Shown here piece by piece: positions 6,411 through 59,482 of a stretch of 64,000 bases of DNA. The position numbers and the translations under genes were made by a program. The stretch is from Catellatospora sp. TT07R-123 (GTDB taxonomy: Bacteria; Actinomycetota; Actinomycetes; Mycobacteriales; Micromonosporaceae). Positions within the stretch are counted from its first letter, which is position 1. Each line of letters begins with the position of its first letter. The DNA lies in the NCBI RefSeq assembly GCF_018327705.1, contig NZ_BNEM01000001.1, forward strand, positions 3,162,001-3,226,000, given 5' to 3'. Under the pieces are notes generated by a model. The model made no database searches, was not told where the DNA came from, and saw only the letters and a program-made list of their open reading frames with translations.

Positions 6411-8930
6411 TCATCCGGTCGCCACGGACAGGACGCCGTCGTCGAGCAGCACCGCCAGGTCGCCCGAAATGTCCGTACGCAGCACCCGTGCCCCGTGTGC
6501 GGCCAGCCGCGCCAGCACCGGCAGGCTGGGGTGGCCGTAGTCGTTGCCCGCGCCGACGCTGACCAGCGCAATCCGGGGCGCGACCGCGTCGAGGAACTCC
6601 GGCGCCTGGTAGGCGCTCCCGTGATGGGCGACCTTGAGCACCTGCGCGCCGAGTCCGGCCCCCGCGTCCAGCAGCGCCCGCTGCCGCTCGGTCTCGGCGT
6701 CACCGGCCAGCAGCACCCGCACCCCGCGCACCTCGGCGAGCAGGAGCAGGGAGTTGTTGTTGGGGTCGCTGCGGGTGCCGCGCAGCGCCGGTCCGGGCAG
6801 GACGGTCAGCCGGACCGCGCCCACGGTCCAGCCGCCCTCGGCCGGGGCCGCCACCACGGGTACGCCGTGCGCGGCGGCGTCGCGCAGCACCGCGTCGCGG
6901 CCGCTCGCGGGCTCCGGGAAGGCCGTGGTGACCACCGTGCCGACCGGCCGCCCCGCGAGCACGCCGTCGAGGCCGCCGATGTGGTCCAGGTGGAAGTGGC
7001 TGACCAGCAGCAACGGCACCGTGCGTACGCCGAGCCGGTCCAGGCACGCGTCGACCGGGCCGGGCAGCGGACCGGCGTCGACGACCACCGCCGCGCCGCC
7101 GCCCGCGTTGAGCACGGTGGCGTCGCCCTGGCCGACGTCGCAGGAGACCGCGATCCAGCCAGGTGGCGGCCAGCCGCCCGCGACCAGCCGCACCGGCAGG
7201 GCGCCGACGGTGGCGGCCAGCGCCAGCACCAGCGCGATCCGGCGCAGGACGGGGCGGCGCAGGCCGAGCATGGCCAGCACGGTCAGGCCCGCCAGCAGCA
7301 GCGCCCCGGGCGCTCCCTCAGGCCACGGCAGCGTGGCGGCGGGCAGTTCGCTGCCGACCCGGGCCACGGTGACCAGCCAGCGGGCGGGCCAGCTGCCGAG
7401 CCAGGCGGCGAACTGCGCGGCCTGCGGCCATACCGGCGACAGCAGTGCGGCGGCGACCCCGGTCAGCGTGGCGGGTGCGACCGCAGGCACGACCAGCAGG
7501 TTCGCCGGCACGGCGACCAGGCTGACGGTGCCGCTGATGCCCGCGATCACCGGCGCGCACGCGAGCTGGGCGGCGGTCGGCACCGCCAGCGCCTCGGCGA
7601 CCCCGCGCGGCACCCGGCGGTGGCGCAGCGCGTCGCGCAGGGGCGGCGCGAGCAGCAGCAGCCCGGCCGTGGCCAGGGTGGACAGCGCGAACCCGGCGTC
7701 GGCGGCCAGCTCCGGATCGAGCACCAGCAGCGCCGCCACGGTCGCGGCGAGGGCGGGCAGCGCGGCGCGGGGCCGTCCCGAGGCCAGGGCCAGCAGCGCG
7801 ATCGCGCCCATCGCGGCGGCCCGCAGCACGCTCGGCGAGGGACGTACGAGGATCACGAAGCCGACCAGCGCGACCGCGCACAGCACCGCGCTCAGCCGCG
7901 GCCCGGCCCGGCACCACCGCGCCAGCAGCAGCACCGCCCCGACGACGACGGCGACGTTGCTGCCGCTGACGGCGTTCAGATGGGTGAGGCCGGCGGTCTT
8001 GAACTGCTGCGCCAGCTCCGGGTCCATGCGGCTGGTGTCGCCGACGACCAGGCCCGGCAGCAGGCCGCCGGTCGCCTCGTCCAGCGGCGCGCAGGCCCGT
8101 TGCAGCCCGGACCGCAGCACCCCGGCGGCGCGCTGCGCCCACGGCGCCGGGCCGAGCGGCTGCGGGGCCGCGTCGGCCGACAGCACCGCCGCGCGCAGGT
8201 CGCCGCCGCGCGACGGTCCGAACCGGACCCGGGCCCGGACCTGCTGGCCCGGCAGCAGCCCCTGCCAGCCGCCGTCGGCGGCCAGCACCAGCACCCGTGC
8301 CTCGGTACGCAGCCCCGCGACGGCGTCCAGGTCGGCCACCACCACCCAGGTCGCGTCCCGGCCGGTCACCCCGGCGACCGCGCGCGGATCATCGCGTACG
8401 GTCAGCAGCACCTGCTCCGACGCGTGCTCCCGCACCAGCGCGGCCAGCTCGGGCGCGTCCCGCACCGACAGCCGCGCCCCGGTCGCCACCGCCCCGCACG
8501 CGATCCCCGCGCAGGCCCCCGCGACAACCCACCGCCACCCCCACCCCGCCGATCCCCCGCCCTCGCCGACACCCGCGCCCGCCCGCGCACTCACGCCCCC
8601 GCGCGGGCTGCCGCCCGCGCCGCCGCCCCCCGTGCCCCGGAGCAGGGTGCAGTTTCGGGGAAAGTGCACGAATCGGCGCCATGATTCCCGCACTTTCCCC
8701 GAAACTGCACGACCCCGACCGACCGCGGCACGGTCGACCTGGACGCGGCCGACCCGGGCGCGGAGGCGGTCGGCGGCGAGTAGGAGGACCGTGGTGAGCA
8801 GGGCGGTCGCGGTCAGCACGTACGCGGTGCGCTGGTCGGTGTGCAGGACGGTCAGCGTGGCGGCCCAGCAGGCCAGCGCGAACGGCGCCAGCCGCAGGTC
8901 GGGTCCCGCCGAGGGGTCGCGGCCGCCCAT
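6411..8930 (-). CDS. comEC: ComEC/Rec2 DNA-uptake channel protein with in-frame palindromic insert
   Basis: 839-residue inner-membrane protein that moves single-stranded DNA into the cytosol during natural transformation. Order: N-terminal membrane helices (residues ~12-52), a soluble DUF4131-like region, the competence domain with HLNAVSGSNVAVVVG and about ten membrane segments, then a metallo-beta-lactamase-like domain with SHFHLDHIGG and KVAHHGSAY. The metal ligands appear intact. Residues 75-94 (AVSGKVRESWRRFVHFPRNC) are encoded exactly by a 60-nt palindromic repeat, and a Gly/Arg-rich linker follows, so the region between the first helices and the soluble domain is longer than usual. The start overlaps the comEA stop by one base (TGATG). 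No other competence genes lie nearby, and natural transformation in this family is not established. Confidence 0.93.
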   Translation of the reverse strand: MGGRDPSAGPDLRLAPFALACWAATLTVLHTDQRTAYVLTATALLTTVLLLAADRLRARVGRVQVDRAAVGRGRAVSGKVRESWRRFVHFPRNCTLLRGTGGGGAGGSPRGGVSARAGAGVGEGGGSAGWGWRWVVAGACAGIACGAVATGARLSVRDAPELAALVREHASEQVLLTVRDDPRAVAGVTGRDATWVVVADLDAVAGLRTEARVLVLAADGGWQGLLPGQQVRARVRFGPSRGGDLRAAVLSADAAPQPLGPAPWAQRAAGVLRSGLQRACAPLDEATGGLLPGLVVGDTSRMDPELAQQFKTAGLTHLNAVSGSNVAVVVGAVLLLARWCRAGPRLSAVLCAVALVGFVILVRPSPSVLRAAAMGAIALLALASGRPRAALPALAATVAALLVLDPELAADAGFALSTLATAGLLLLAPPLRDALRHRRVPRGVAEALAVPTAAQLACAPVIAGISGTVSLVAVPANLLVVPAVAPATLTGVAAALLSPVWPQAAQFAAWLGSWPARWLVTVARVGSELPAATLPWPEGAPGALLLAGLTVLAMLGLRRPVLRRIALVLALAATVGALPVRLVAGGWPPPGWIAVSCDVGQGDATVLNAGGGAAVVVDAGPLPGPVDACLDRLGVRTVPLLLVSHFHLDHIGGLDGVLAGRPVGTVVTTAFPEPASGRDAVLRDAAAHGVPVVAAPAEGGWTVGAVRLTVLPGPALRGTRSDPNNNSLLLLAEVRGVRVLLAGDAETERQRALLDAGAGLGAQVLKVAHHGSAYQAPEFLDAVAPRIALVSVGAGNDYGHPSLPVLARLAAHGARVLRTDISGDLAVLLDDGVLSVATG
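8649..8708. repeat. 60-nt palindromic repeat, type B, in frame inside comEC
   Basis: The two 30-nt halves (8649-8678 and 8679-8708) are reverse complements at 25 of 30 positions, with outer arms GCAGTTTCGGGGAAAGTGC perfectly paired. A second element of the same length and outer sequence lies at 26400-26459 between obg and rpmA. Here it is read as exactly 20 codons of comEC without disturbing the frame. Confidence 0.9.
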
Positions 8931-9817
8931 CAGACCGTGACCAGGTCTTTGAGCTGCTCGTACTTGGCGTCGCCGATGCCCTCGACCTGCCGCAGCTCCC
9001 CCACGCCGCGGAAGTCGCCGTGCCGGGCGCGGTGGTCGAGGATGCGCTGCGCCAGCACCGGGCCGACCCCGGGCAGGGCGTCGAGCTGCGCGAGGGTGGC
9101 CGTGTTCAGGTTCACCAGGCCGCCGGGCACCGCCCCTGGGCCGCCGCCCTGGTCGGCGGCCGCCGCGCCGGGCACCGCGACCGCGATCAGCTCGCCGTCG
9201 GTGACGCGGCGGGCCAGGTTGAGCGTGGACAGGTCGGTGCCGGGCAGCACGCCCCCGGCCGCTTCGATGGCGTCGGCGACGCGGGAGCCGGGCGATAGGC
9301 GTACCAGACCTGGATGCCGCACCCGGCCGGTCACCGCGACCACCAGTTCCGCCGGGGAGGGCGCCGCCGTGGGCCGGGGTGCGGCGGTGTCGGCGACCAG
9401 CGCCGGGACCGGCTCGGCCTGTGGACGCGCCTGCCAGGCCAGGTATGCCGCGATCAGCACCACGAGCACGGCGACCGCCGCCAGTGCCCGCACCCCGCGC
9501 CGTCCCGGGTCGAACGCCGACCGCCCCGGCAGCGCCGACGGCCGCTGCTCCGGCTCGGGATCGCCGCCGGGCAGGGCACCGAACTGCGGCAGCGTGCCGT
9601 CCGGTGGACGCGCCAGCCGGGCGCCGTCGGGCGGCACCTCCTCGGCCTGCGGCACGTACCCGGCCGGCGCGGGCACGTCGTCAGACGGGGCCGACTGCGG
9701 GACGGCGAACACGCTTCTCAGCCGGCGGTGGGCCGCCTCGTCGGGCGGCTGGGGCGCAGTGACAGCACGCGGCCACGTTAGGAACGCCGGGCACCGCCCG
9801 GTATGGCCGCGCGGCAC
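8930..9817 (-). CDS. comEA: ComEA-like DNA receptor: single membrane helix, SLBB, helix-hairpin-helix
   Basis: 295-residue protein that binds double-stranded DNA at the cell surface and passes it to ComEC. It has a disordered N-terminus rich in Pro, a membrane helix (RALAAVAVLVVLIAAYLAW), a SLBB domain (VTGRVRHPGLVRLSPGSRVADAI) and a C-terminal tandem helix-hairpin-helix (VNLNTATLAQLDALPGVG, then QVEGIGDAKYEQLKDLV). The start is uncertain: the ATG at 9817 gives a long hydrophilic head, and an in-frame GTG about 18 codons later is possible. It is the first gene of the comEA-comEC-holA run, with one-base and four-base overlaps downstream. Confidence 0.9.
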   Translation of the reverse strand: MPRGHTGRCPAFLTWPRAVTAPQPPDEAAHRRLRSVFAVPQSAPSDDVPAPAGYVPQAEEVPPDGARLARPPDGTLPQFGALPGGDPEPEQRPSALPGRSAFDPGRRGVRALAAVAVLVVLIAAYLAWQARPQAEPVPALVADTAAPRPTAAPSPAELVVAVTGRVRHPGLVRLSPGSRVADAIEAAGGVLPGTDLSTLNLARRVTDGELIAVAVPGAAAADQGGGPGAVPGGLVNLNTATLAQLDALPGVGPVLAQRILDHRARHGDFRGVGELRQVEGIGDAKYEQLKDLVTV

Positions 9818-24694: not shown

Positions 24695-26239
24695 TCAGCG
24701 GCGCTCGTCCGCGTCCGCGTCCGCGTCGGTCTCGTCGAAGTCGTCGGCGAAGTCCTCGTCGTCGTCTGCGGCGCCGTCGGGGCCCTGGACGTCCTGCCCG
24801 TCCTCCAGCCACTCGTCTCCGGCGGTGTCGCCGTCCTCGCGCTCGCGGCGTGCCTTGCGGGCGGCCAGGCGCTCGGTGGCACCGGGCCGGGTCGGCTCGC
24901 CGTCGATGCGGATGTCGGTGCCCCGGTTGCCGGGCACGTAGTCGACGCCGGCGTAGACCGTGGGCTGCCAGTCGAACTCCATGGTGCCGATGCGCACCGG
25001 GTCGCCCGGCTGCGCGCCGAGCTTGGCCAGCTTCGCCTCGACGCCGAGCCGGGCGAGCCGGTCGGCCAGGTAGCCGACGGCCTCGTCGTTGTCGAACGTG
25101 GTCTGCCGCACCCAGCGCTCGGGCTTGGCGCCGCGCACGACCCATACCCCGGCCTTGTCCTGCTCGATCTCGAAGCCGGAGTCGTCGACGGCCTTCGGGC
25201 GCAGCACGATGCGGGTCGGCTCCAGCACCGGCTTGGCGGCGCGGTGCTCGTCGACCAGCCGGGCCAGCGCGTAGATCAGCTCCTGGAGGCCCTCGCGGGT
25301 GGCGGCGCTGACGGCGTAGATCGGCCAGCCGTACTTCTCCAGGTCGGGGCGGACGATGTCGGCCAGATCCCGCCCGTCCGGTACGTCGATCTTGTTGAGC
25401 ACGATGATCCGGGGCCGGTCCTCCAGCCCGCCGTACTGCGCCAGCTCCGCCTCCAGGGCGTCGATGTCGGCGGCGGGGTCGCGGTTGGGCTCCAGCGTGG
25501 CGGTGTCCACGACGTGCGCCAGCACCGCGGTGCGCTCGATGTGGCGCAGGAAGTCCAGGCCCAGGCCCTTGCCCTCGGCCGCGCCCGGGATCAGGCCGGG
25601 CACGTCGGCGACGGTGTACGTCTGGTCGCCGGCCTGCACCACGCCGAGGTTCGGCACCAGCGTGGTGAACGGGTAGTCCGCGATCTTGGGCTTGGCCGCG
25701 GAGATCACCGAGATCAGCGACGACTTGCCCGCGCTCGGGAAGCCGACCAGGCCGACGTCGGCGACGCTCTTGAGCTCCACCACCACGTCGAGCCGGTCCC
25801 CGGGCTCGCCCAGCTCGGCGAAGCCGGGAGCCTTGCGCCGGGAGCTGGCCAGCGCCGCGTTGCCCCGGCCGCCCCGGCCGCCCCGGGCGATCTCCAGGGT
25901 CGTGCCGGTGCCCACCAGGTCGGCGATGACCTCGCCGTCGGCCGTCTGCACCACGGTGCCGTCGGGCACCTTGAGCACCAGGTCGGTCCCGTTGGCGCCC
26001 TCGCGGTTGTTGCCCGCGCCGCCCTTGCCGTTCGGGGCCTTGAGGTGGGGGTGGAAGTGGAAGTCCAGCAGCGTGTGCACGTTCGGGTCGACGACCATCA
26101 GGATGCCGCCGCCGTGGCCGCCGTTGCCCCCGTCAGGGCCGCCGAACGGCTTGAACTTCTCCCGGTGGATGGAGACGCAACCGTGCCCGCCGTCACCCGC
26201 CTGTAGGTGCAGCACCACGCGATCCACGAAGGTCGCCAC
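24695..26239 (-). CDS. obg: GTPase ObgE/CgtA
   Basis: 514-residue GTPase involved in 50S assembly and stringent-type control. The Gly-rich Obg fold occupies residues 1-160 ([16 protein letters not shown]-type start, [11 protein letters not shown]), the G domain has GFPSAGKSS (166-174), DVPGLIPGA and NKIDVPD, an OCT domain follows (~335-420), and the C-terminal ~65 residues form a very acidic tail. The long tail and OCT domain are typical of actinobacteria. The GTG at 26239 is supported by GGAGG nine bases upstream. It follows rplU-rpmA as usual, but a 309-nt gap with a palindromic repeat separates it from rpmA. Confidence 0.97.
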
Positions 26240-26399
26240 GTTTCCATCCTCCAGCTATGTAGATCTAAATCAGCATATGCCCGCTCTGCGGGCGCACTCG
26301 CACCACTGCCGGCGAGCTCCCCGACAATCAGCGCTCGCCGCGGCCCGCGCATGCCCCGAACACACTGGGACGCTCACCACAACGCGGGTCCGGGTCACT

Positions 26400-26459
26400 G
26401 CAGTTTCCGGGAAAGTGCAGGAATTCTGGCCGGAATTCGTGCACTTTCCCCGAAACTGC
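26400..26459. repeat. 60-nt palindromic repeat, type B, intergenic copy
   Basis: The two 30-nt halves (26400-26429, 26430-26459) pair at 27 of 30 positions, with outer sequence GCAGTTTC(C/G)GGGAAAGTGCA and inner GAATTC blocks on both sides. It is the same length and sequence type as 8649-8708. It lies in the 309-nt gap between rpmA and obg, about 160 nt upstream of the obg start. It carries no T-run and may be transcribed in the rplU-rpmA-obg mRNA if the rpmA terminator reads through. Confidence 0.9.
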
Positions 26460-26503
26460 GGTGACCGCCCGGCCCTCGGCGCGGCGCAGCCGGCGGAAAT
26501 GGT

Positions 26504-26548: not shown

Positions 26549-26806
26549 TCAGCCCTCGACCGGGACGATGTTCACGGTCTTGCGGCCGCGCTTGAGGCCG
26601 AACTGCACGGCACCGTGGGCCAGCGCGAACAGCGTGTCGTCGCTACCACGGCCGACCAGGTCGCCCGGGTGGAACTTGGTGCCACGCTGGCGGATGAGGA
26701 TCTCGCCGGCGGACACGACCTGACCACCGAAGCGCTTCACCCCGAGCCGCTGGGCGGCGGAGTCGCGACCGTTGCGCGAGCTGGATGCACCCTTTTTATG
26801 TGCCAT
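26549..26806 (-). CDS. rpmA: 50S ribosomal protein L27
   Basis: 85-residue protein near the peptidyl-transferase centre. It matches bL27: [22 protein letters not shown], then [17 protein letters not shown] and [15 protein letters not shown]. No N-terminal prosequence as in Firmicutes. Eight bases separate it from rplU, so the two are one operon. Confidence 0.97.
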
Positions 26807-26814
26807 CTCGAGGC

Positions 26815-27129
26815 CTACTTCCCGCTCTTGATGCCGGTGACCTTGACCTGGGTCAGCGGCTGACGGTGACCCTGCCGCTTGTGGTAGCCGGTCTTGTTCT
26901 TGAACTTGTGGATCCGGATCTTCGGGCCCTTGGTGTGGGCCACGACCTCTCCGGAAACAGAAACCTTGGCAAGCTTCGCCGCGTCGGTCACCAGGTCGCT
27001 GCCATCAACGAGCAGCACTGCGGACAGTGCAACCGCGTCGCCGGGCGCGCCCGCGAGCTTCTCGACCTCGATCACGTCGCCCTCGGCGACCTTGTACTGC
27101 TTGCCGCCGGTCTTGACGATCGCGTACAT
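26815..27129 (-). CDS. rplU: 50S ribosomal protein L21
   Basis: 104-residue bL21, binding 23S rRNA beside L20. [18 protein letters not shown] at the start and the [22 protein letters not shown]-binding loop are diagnostic. It is the first gene of rplU-rpmA; the 202-nt gap upstream holds its promoter, but no L21 leader structure I recognise. Confidence 0.97.
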
Positions 27130-53947: not shown

Positions 53948-54065
53948 GTCCGGCGGTGTCCTACTCTCCCACAACGTCCCCGTTGCAGTACCATCGGCGC
54001 TGGAGGGCTTAGCTTCCGGGTTCGGAATGTTTCCGGGCGTTTCCCCTCCGCCATGACCGCCGTAA
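53948..54065 (-). rRNA. rrf: 5S ribosomal RNA
   Basis: About 118 nt with actinobacterial 5S hallmarks on the minus strand: GTTACGGCGGTC start, CATTCCGAACCCGGAAGCTAAG, GCCGATGGTACTGC and GGGAGAGTAGGACACCGCCG end. The ends pair to form helix I. Boundaries may be off by a few bases. Confidence 0.95.
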
Positions 54066-54184
54066 CACTATCAACATATCAACCCTTGCCTACGACACCG
54101 AACGGTGGAGGCGGTTGCATGCCGTGATGTGCATGGTGGACGCGAGCGTTTCTTTGCGCAGCTTCTGACGTAAAGATAGTTAGG

Positions 54185-59157
<4,973 letters not shown>

Positions 59158-59482
59158 AAAGAATTCAAAAACCCGGCAAAAAACAACCACCGACATAAAA
59201 AATGTCCGAATGTTTGCTTAATACCAAAGGAATGACCACGACGAGGTGATCAATAAATTGGCACTGGCATATCTAGCACCCTGTTGAGTTCTCAAAGAAC
59301 AAGCACACACCGAAACCCACCACATCTCTGCGGGAAGTTCGCGGGGCAACTCGTCAAAGCTTACCCGACCGGTTTCGCGTCCCCCTAACCGGGGTCCGCA
59401 CCACTCGGGGCGGCTCAGCGATCCGGCCTCCGCCCGAGCTATCCGCTCCGGCGTTTCTGTCCGTTCCTCGCTGGCAGAGAGA
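59158..59482 (-). other. rrn leader with 16S processing half-stem
   Basis: 325-nt transcribed leader 5' of 16S. The element at 59279-59304 (minus: GCTTGTTCTTTGAGAACTC, then CAACAGGGTGCTA) is the conserved actinobacterial rrn leader and pairs with the spacer copy. No coding frame is supported. Confidence 0.85.

Follow-up and report, generated by a model that had tools for sequence, protein, structure and literature searches.

The 62-nt palindrome within the comEC gene of Catellatospora sp. TT07R-123 is probably one copy of a mobile repeat family, new here, that is REPIN-like, non-autonomous and RAYT-less, and whose units can form a single long hairpin on either strand. It was found in a 64,000-nt stretch of contig NZ_BNEM01000001.1 (positions 3,162,001 to 3,226,000), referred to below as the window. 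An earlier sequence-only reading of the window had described an inverted repeat of 60 nt whose halves match at 25 of 30 positions and which is translated as ComEC residues 75-94, together with a sister repeat, and these observations were reproduced. The sister matches itself at 27 of 30 positions and is equal to the first copy at 38 of the outer 40 positions. The length of 60 nt held as a stricter core; the conserved unit is 62 nt in both copies. The positions of the features are listed in Table 1. The genomes of 11 Catellatospora species were compared and are designated G000 (the host genome, 9.17 Mb) to G010.

Table 1. Positions of the palindromic elements, neighboring genes and associated IS30 copies (window coordinates unless a genome and contig are given)
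Feature	Position	Strand	Remarks
62-nt palindromic element	8648..8709	.	inside comEC; core 8649-8708
Left arm, 21 nt	8648..8668	+	TGCAGTTTCGGGGAAAGTGCA; near-palindrome in itself (TGCASTTTCSSSGAAASTGCA)
Variable centre, 20 nt	8669..8688	.	consensus half GAATC(T/A)TGG on minus strand
Right arm (inverted)	8689..8709	-	1 mismatch vs left arm
comEC	6411..8930	-	839 codons from 8930; Pfam Competence + Lactamase_B; codons 75-94 = palindrome core
Sister element	26399..26460	.	intergenic; core 26400-26459
comEA-like gene	8930..9817	-	SLBB + helix-hairpin-helix; upstream of comEC
IS30 copy in palindrome centre	G000 C1:2362628		locus L201
IS30 copy in palindrome centre	G000 C1:3824030		locus L204
IS30 copy in palindrome centre	G000 C2:1357537		locus L207

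Structure of the palindromic element

The conserved unit consists of a 21-nt arm, a 20-nt centre and an inverted 21-nt arm, with an arm-to-arm distance of 41 nt, and each arm is a near-palindrome in itself. Of 185 unique copies, 149 retained the terminal T and 147 the terminal A, which sets the unit at 62 nt. The oriented consensus of these copies was tGCAGTTTCGGGGAAA(G/C)TGCa SGAATCTTGG CC nnn aTTCS tGCASTTTCCCCGAAACTGCa (n, no clear letter). The arm positions were near-invariant and the centre was variable in this set, in which copies were picked via their arms (on GTDB contigs both the arms and the spacing had to be exact, and in the host genome a single arm sufficed). The spacing was therefore assessed independently of this ascertainment in G001 (39 copies) and G002 (24 copies), which were fully listed with the gap left open from 7 to 37 nt. 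The spacing was identical in 61 of these 63 copies and differed by 1 base in the other two. The centres of the G001 and G002 copies have little sequence in common, and thus the exact length is preserved where the sequence is not. One-base spacing changes, degenerate copies and solitary arms also occurred in the contiguous stretches. Solitary arms without a partner (TGCAGTTTCSSSGAAASTGCA) were seen at about position 2394227 of G000 C1 (L246) and at position 1501 of locus L017.

Within the window, five arm matches were found at up to 3 mismatches, compared to none in each of 100 dinucleotide shuffles, and the fold z-scores of both copies on both strands ranged from -8.2 to -10.1. An element longer than 62 nt was considered and rejected, as similarities of approximately 140 nt in the flanks were GC-rich low-complexity runs. 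Inverted 4-nt flanks were in excess (17 compared to 4.4 expected; largest shuffle, 10), indicating that the palindrome is longer in some copies. No direct repeats of 4 nt or more were present at the element ends in any of 183 copies, the other 2 of the 185 being too close to a locus end. Direct repeats of 2 nt were found in 43 of the 183 compared to 33.4 by shuffling (largest shuffle, 47), and a 2-nt target duplication may occur.

Copy number and distribution

The sequence-only reading left the existence of copies beyond the two in the window to a genome search. A 17-nt piece of the arm gave 202 forward and 211 reverse matches in G000 at up to 2 mismatches, and the reversed-pattern control gave none. 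The full palindrome, again at up to 2 mismatches, gave 154 forward and 159 reverse matches, a single copy being able to match on one strand or on both. The host genome thus holds 150 copies or more. With exact arms and a free gap, 132 copies were counted in G000, 145 in G008 and 86 in G009, and each of the remaining eight congeners had between 2 and 41, although the G009 count is possibly inflated because its assembly has stretches of 100% identity on different contigs (loci L095/L122, L096/L154 and L104/L131). Overall, copy number varied from 2 to approximately 210 between Catellatospora species.

All 11 Catellatospora genomes contained the full palindrome. Of 300 genomes sampled from the family, the remaining 289 all lacked it, and a search for exact arms in a phylum sample was negative in all 395 genomes outside the genus. 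A scan of GTDB contigs returned at least 120 stretches, and all of the 80 matches listed belonged to Catellatospora. No match to the element was found in the viral contigs and plasmids searched. Within the samples searched, the family is restricted to the genus Catellatospora.

Placement relative to genes and along the chromosome

Most copies are intergenic and biased to the 3' ends of genes. Among the 185 unique copies, 89 lay in co-directional, 62 in convergent and 13 in divergent gaps, 6 were inside genes, and 15 at locus edges were left unclassified. By gap length, 89.0 co-directional, 33.1 convergent and 42.0 divergent copies were expected, so that convergent placement was in excess and divergent placement was depleted. 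Expectations were drawn from contiguous stretches of G000, G008 and G009 totaling approximately 738 kb, with a coding fraction of 0.885. Among the 85 co-directional copies with clear distances, 70 were closer to the 3' end of the upstream gene. In the window, the sister element is flanked by the minus-strand coding runs 24697-26177 and 26552-26827 and is closer to the 3' end of the latter. Placement was scored with a home-made coding segmentation, in which orthologous copies of different species were counted apart and comEC copies with a non-coding-looking linker were scored as co-directional rather than genic. This segmentation replaced an earlier classifier with 180-nt windows that had scored no genic copy and had missed even comEC. 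When same-frame coding on both sides and a frame open through the element were taken as the measure, at most 14 of the 185 copies were genic.

The bias to 3' ends and convergent gaps, together with the strong fold on both strands, would also be expected of a purely RNA element, that is, a hairpin at transcript 3' ends with a role in transcription termination or mRNA protection, spread by recombination without being self-mobile. In agreement with this, the variable pair 17-46 showed a slight Watson-Crick excess within the range of the shuffles, both in the first set (111 of 185 compared to 95.0; largest shuffle, 113) and in G001 and G002 (43 of 61 compared to 34.7; largest shuffle, 47). However, arm sequence is preserved beyond what pairing alone calls for, a hairpin does not need a centre of fixed length, and copies occur inside coding sequence. 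The stem pair 22-41 was paired in 56 of the 185 copies of the first set, below the expected 87.6, no T tract follows the window copies, and there was no Rfam match to the element, rRNAs being the sole matches at the gathering score in the window and locus L031. We regard this explanation as distinctly unlikely. A conserved stem mismatch at 22-41 was also considered; strong in the first set, it was missing in G001 and G002 (25 of 61 paired, 28.3 expected) and was dropped as a founder effect. The minus strand of the window carries an rRNA operon (5S, 23S, 16S) at 53948-59160.

Along the chromosome, only 5 of 125 exact copies of G000 lay in C1:1-1.456 Mb, compared to approximately 20 expected by length, if the copies, ten of which were listed, are in positional order. 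The dnaA gene of G000, a genome in two contigs, is at C1:4.572 Mb. In G002, none of the 24 copies was within an arc of approximately 2.66 Mb opposite dnaA, the arc having been picked post hoc with C1 taken as circular. The copy-poor part of the chromosome is probably around the terminus. Many mobile elements favor terminus-like regions, and the scarcity of copies there speaks against a mobile family. The copy-poor region would also be accounted for if accessory DNA turns over near the terminus.

Copies translated in frame

The core of the comEC copy is translated as AVSGKVRESWRRFVHFPRNC in ComEC. In the 11 species, the segment between the first helices and the motif WRWIVAGA of ComEC varied in length, which fits the proposal of the sequence-only reading that the insert occupies a tolerant linker connecting the first membrane helices to the remainder of the protein. 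The palindrome was found in comEC of 6 of the 11 species in two reading frames. In G000, G008 and G009 it encodes the peptide AVSGK..FPRNC and in G010, in a second frame, QFRGNC..SFPETA; degenerate copies in G007 and G001 are in the same frame as that of G010. No palindrome was seen in comEC of G002 to G006, and the 20 residues are thus not shared by all related ComEC proteins. The N-terminal segment upstream of the insert was conserved in 11 of 11 species, and comEC thus does not start downstream of codon 94.

The two frames and the different flanks and centres suggest that the comEC insertions probably had two or three separate origins, with a shared origin possible for the G007 and G010 copies, which are in the same frame. 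Alternatively, a single old insertion may have changed frame later. The centre of the G000 copy agreed with those of G009 and G008 at 15 and 14 of 20 letters when turned, compared to 11 and 12 when unturned, respectively; the G000 centre is apparently opposite in polarity to the G008 and G009 copies. The surrounding linker is too variable for the exact inserted length to be read. The structure prediction for ComEC had low confidence (mean pLDDT, 42.0) and was uninformative on the insert. The insert is most likely a tolerated linker passenger rather than a functional part of the protein.

In-frame copies were also found in two other genes, so that carriage extends to three unrelated proteins. 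In the acyl-CoA carboxylase alpha subunit (biotin carboxylase C domain), an in-frame copy was present in G005, G002, G010, G001 and G007 and absent in G003, G004, G000, G008 and G009. The copy in G006 (G006:C5:139326-141065, L271) was decayed and contained an in-frame TAG stop, reflecting either a pseudogene or a sequencing error. This was the sole gene with a usable length comparison, the net difference between G003 and G005 being 69 nt. The third copy was in the central loop of an MFS transporter in G008 and G009 and was not seen in the other nine species. The consensus arms contain no stop codon in any frame, and genic copies are therefore read through as approximately 20 extra residues. 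As many as 119 of the 185 copies were stop-free in all six frames, the corresponding shares being 26.9% for 62-mers drawn at random from the genome and 0.3% after shuffling of the copies.

These findings confirm that a dispersed palindromic repeat is inserted in frame in comEC. The sequence-only reading had likened it to the Rickettsia palindromic elements (RPEs). To our knowledge, the mover of RPEs is not known. Both kinds of element are palindromic, dispersed and in frame in unrelated proteins, and the likeness held to this extent. RPEs are reported to be approximately 150 bp long and to lie largely in frame within genes (PMC10969869), whereas the Catellatospora copies are 62 nt and mostly intergenic. 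An RPE-like specialist for coding genes would explain the in-frame copies in the three proteins and the stop-free arms. Yet the share of genic copies, 6 or at most 14 of 185 when 88.5% of the sampled DNA is coding, is not that of a specialist, the unit is shorter than an RPE, and the genic copies resemble survivors in linkers, which makes this explanation very improbable. In-frame insertion is real, but there is no specialization for coding genes.

Divergence between species

Copies were often retained in the same gap across species, and some were missing from the orthologous gap in other species. A sequence in G009 was read as a decayed remnant of the 26400 copy. In the orthologous gap of G007, a different hairpin (GCAACTCTCAAAGAGTCGC..GTAAGAGTTGCG; stretch L264-L267) was seen in place of the palindrome. 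The immediate flanks were often unalignable where the element persists. No letter-perfect empty site was found in the orthologous gaps compared, because the surrounding gaps diverge too fast.

In eight same-gap pairs from contiguous stretches, of which three were comEC and not independent and from which spacing variants were excluded, the arms were equal at 306 of 336 positions (91.1%) and the centres at 112 of 160 (70.0%). The corresponding values in a larger set of 21 comparisons were 820 of 882 and 320 of 420. Since agreement at four-fold degenerate sites was 79.0 to 83.0%, the arms change more slowly than these sites and the centres at about the same rate or faster, with all values tilted to conservation, those of the arms most, because copies had to be recognizable.

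Retention in the same gap would also be explained by a host function. As one such function, the palindrome might be a bipartite binding site maintained by the host, with two 21-bp operator-like arms held at a fixed 41 bp (approximately four helical turns) for a chromosome-organizing or regulatory protein. The sites of Noc and SlmA are bound by proteins of this kind. The rigid spacing, the slow change of the arms, the near 2-fold symmetry of each arm (fuller with C at position 17) and the scarcity of copies in G000 C1:1-1.456 Mb and in the G002 arc opposite dnaA would all suit such a site. Against it, the GGGG of the arm core is asymmetric in nearly all copies, and the strong differences in copy number and those in presence or absence, as well as the in-frame copies in proteins, suit a spreading element better. 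Moreover, each of the 8 Catellatospora genomes tested had one strong ParB, as in other genera, with a weaker second in G000 only. A single strong ParB per genome leaves no conserved Noc-like paralogue, and a Noc/ParB-like system was rejected. A host-maintained binding site is therefore judged unlikely, and a spreading repeat is preferred.

Candidate movers, IS30 and a second palindrome family

The Y1_Tnp domain that characterizes RAYTs gave no matches in G000, G001, G008, G009 and G010, and the E. coli control was positive. Matches were obtained in G002 to G007, mostly in frames of approximately 150 aa, and were read as IS200-type. The three genomes with the most copies, G000, G008 and G009, thus have no Y1_Tnp, and a RAYT was rejected as the mover. 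No transposase able to move the palindrome was identified among the candidates.

G000 carries three copies of an IS30 element with an identical transposase, all three located within the centre of a 62-nt palindrome. Palindrome arms flanking all three of these copies could mean that the palindrome is a MITE of an IS30 element and represents the IS30 ends. However, as judged by eye, terminal repeats belonging to IS30 itself lie within the arms, and the half-centres on either side are not the same from copy to copy. Nine further IS30 loci had no first-family arms on both sides, and one of them had a whole copy nearby. G008 and G009 are rich in palindromes, yet no match to the IS30 transposase was obtained at E 1e-40. 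In addition, a relative with 81% identity, seen in G002 (4 of 4 copies), and a second, more distant relative in G000 (3 of 3) were found by eye inside a different palindrome family. An IS30 origin is thus extremely improbable, and IS30 was rejected as the parent of the palindrome, into whose centre it has inserted. The location of IS30 inside palindromes indicates that it is the guest and the palindrome the landing site. In the stretches read, which cover part of the genome, no insertion sequence was seen that shares the palindrome ends and could be its parent, and IS30 was found inside the centre only.

The second palindrome family has the form ATAGACGTTGGCCTAT..ATAGGCCAACGTCTAT and was 65 nt long in all 4 pairs found in approximately 818 kb. 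It was seen in stretches L238-L247 and L254-L263 of G000 and G008 and at loci L202, L205, L208 and L210 of G002, and had no match within the window.

Comparison with known repeats

REPINs are described as inverted REP doublets in which the ends are conserved, the spacer is less so and the distances are kept perfectly (PMC3116915). The Catellatospora family likewise has inverted conserved ends at a fixed distance, a freer spacer and mostly extragenic placement downstream of genes or between convergent ones. As in the REPINs and BIMEs of Pseudomonas and enterobacteria, it has two inverted REP-like palindromes, a hairpin formed by the whole unit, extragenic location and many copies per genome (PMC3116915). 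In contrast, it has no RAYT in the three high-copy genomes and no GTAG tag, and is 62 nt overall. The tetranucleotides GTAG and CGTC were both absent from the consensus of the arms and half-centre, and neither was seen in the flank profile. As the RAYT and the tag, two hallmarks of REPINs, were looked for and not found, the family is not classed as a REPIN member.

A survey reports that REPs lie chiefly downstream of genes, in gaps of the convergent and unidirectional type, that some are inside ORFs, including copies at roughly the same position of recB in two Xanthomonas species, that the CGTC class has no dedicated transposase, and that rickettsial repeats are treated as REPs as well (PMC3733652). 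The Catellatospora family resembles the GTAG and CGTC REPs of that survey in its gap placement and its occasional copies in ORFs, and the CGTC class in having no dedicated transposase (PMC3733652). It differs from them in that its consensus carries neither tag and in being a genus-restricted family of actinomycetes. MITEs such as ERIC, NEMIS and RUP are similarly short, non-coding and intergenic with inverted repeats; unlike them, the Catellatospora element showed no target duplications of at least 4 nt. The sequence-only reading knew of no described equivalent in actinomycetes, and none was found in the open-access literature searched, where a text search for part of the arm also gave no match.

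Proposed mode of spread and implications

For a REPIN-like mobile family, copies would be spread by a trans-acting enzyme that recognizes the two arms when they are a set distance apart, perhaps while the DNA is folded as a single-stranded hairpin. Under such recognition the arms and their spacing would persist while the centre drifts. New copies would survive where harm is small, namely after genes and, rarely, in genic linkers if the net length preserves the frame. It is possible, if rather doubtful, that at least two palindrome families of fixed length (62 and 65 nt) are spread by an undescribed non-Y1 mechanism that reads two hairpins at a fixed distance. In this broader proposal, one family would have repeatedly decorated the same ComEC linker, in two frames and probably from two or three origins, genome repeats would be a source of new protein linkers, and IS30 would use the palindromes as safe landing sites.

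A RAYT transposase is the usual explanation for repeats of the REPIN type. A family that is built like REPINs and is most numerous where a RAYT is undetectable raises the question of what moves it or whether the host maintains it. With 11 species carrying 2 to approximately 210 copies, and with several protein copies intact or decaying, the spread and decay of such repeats and their tolerance by proteins can be followed directly in Catellatospora.
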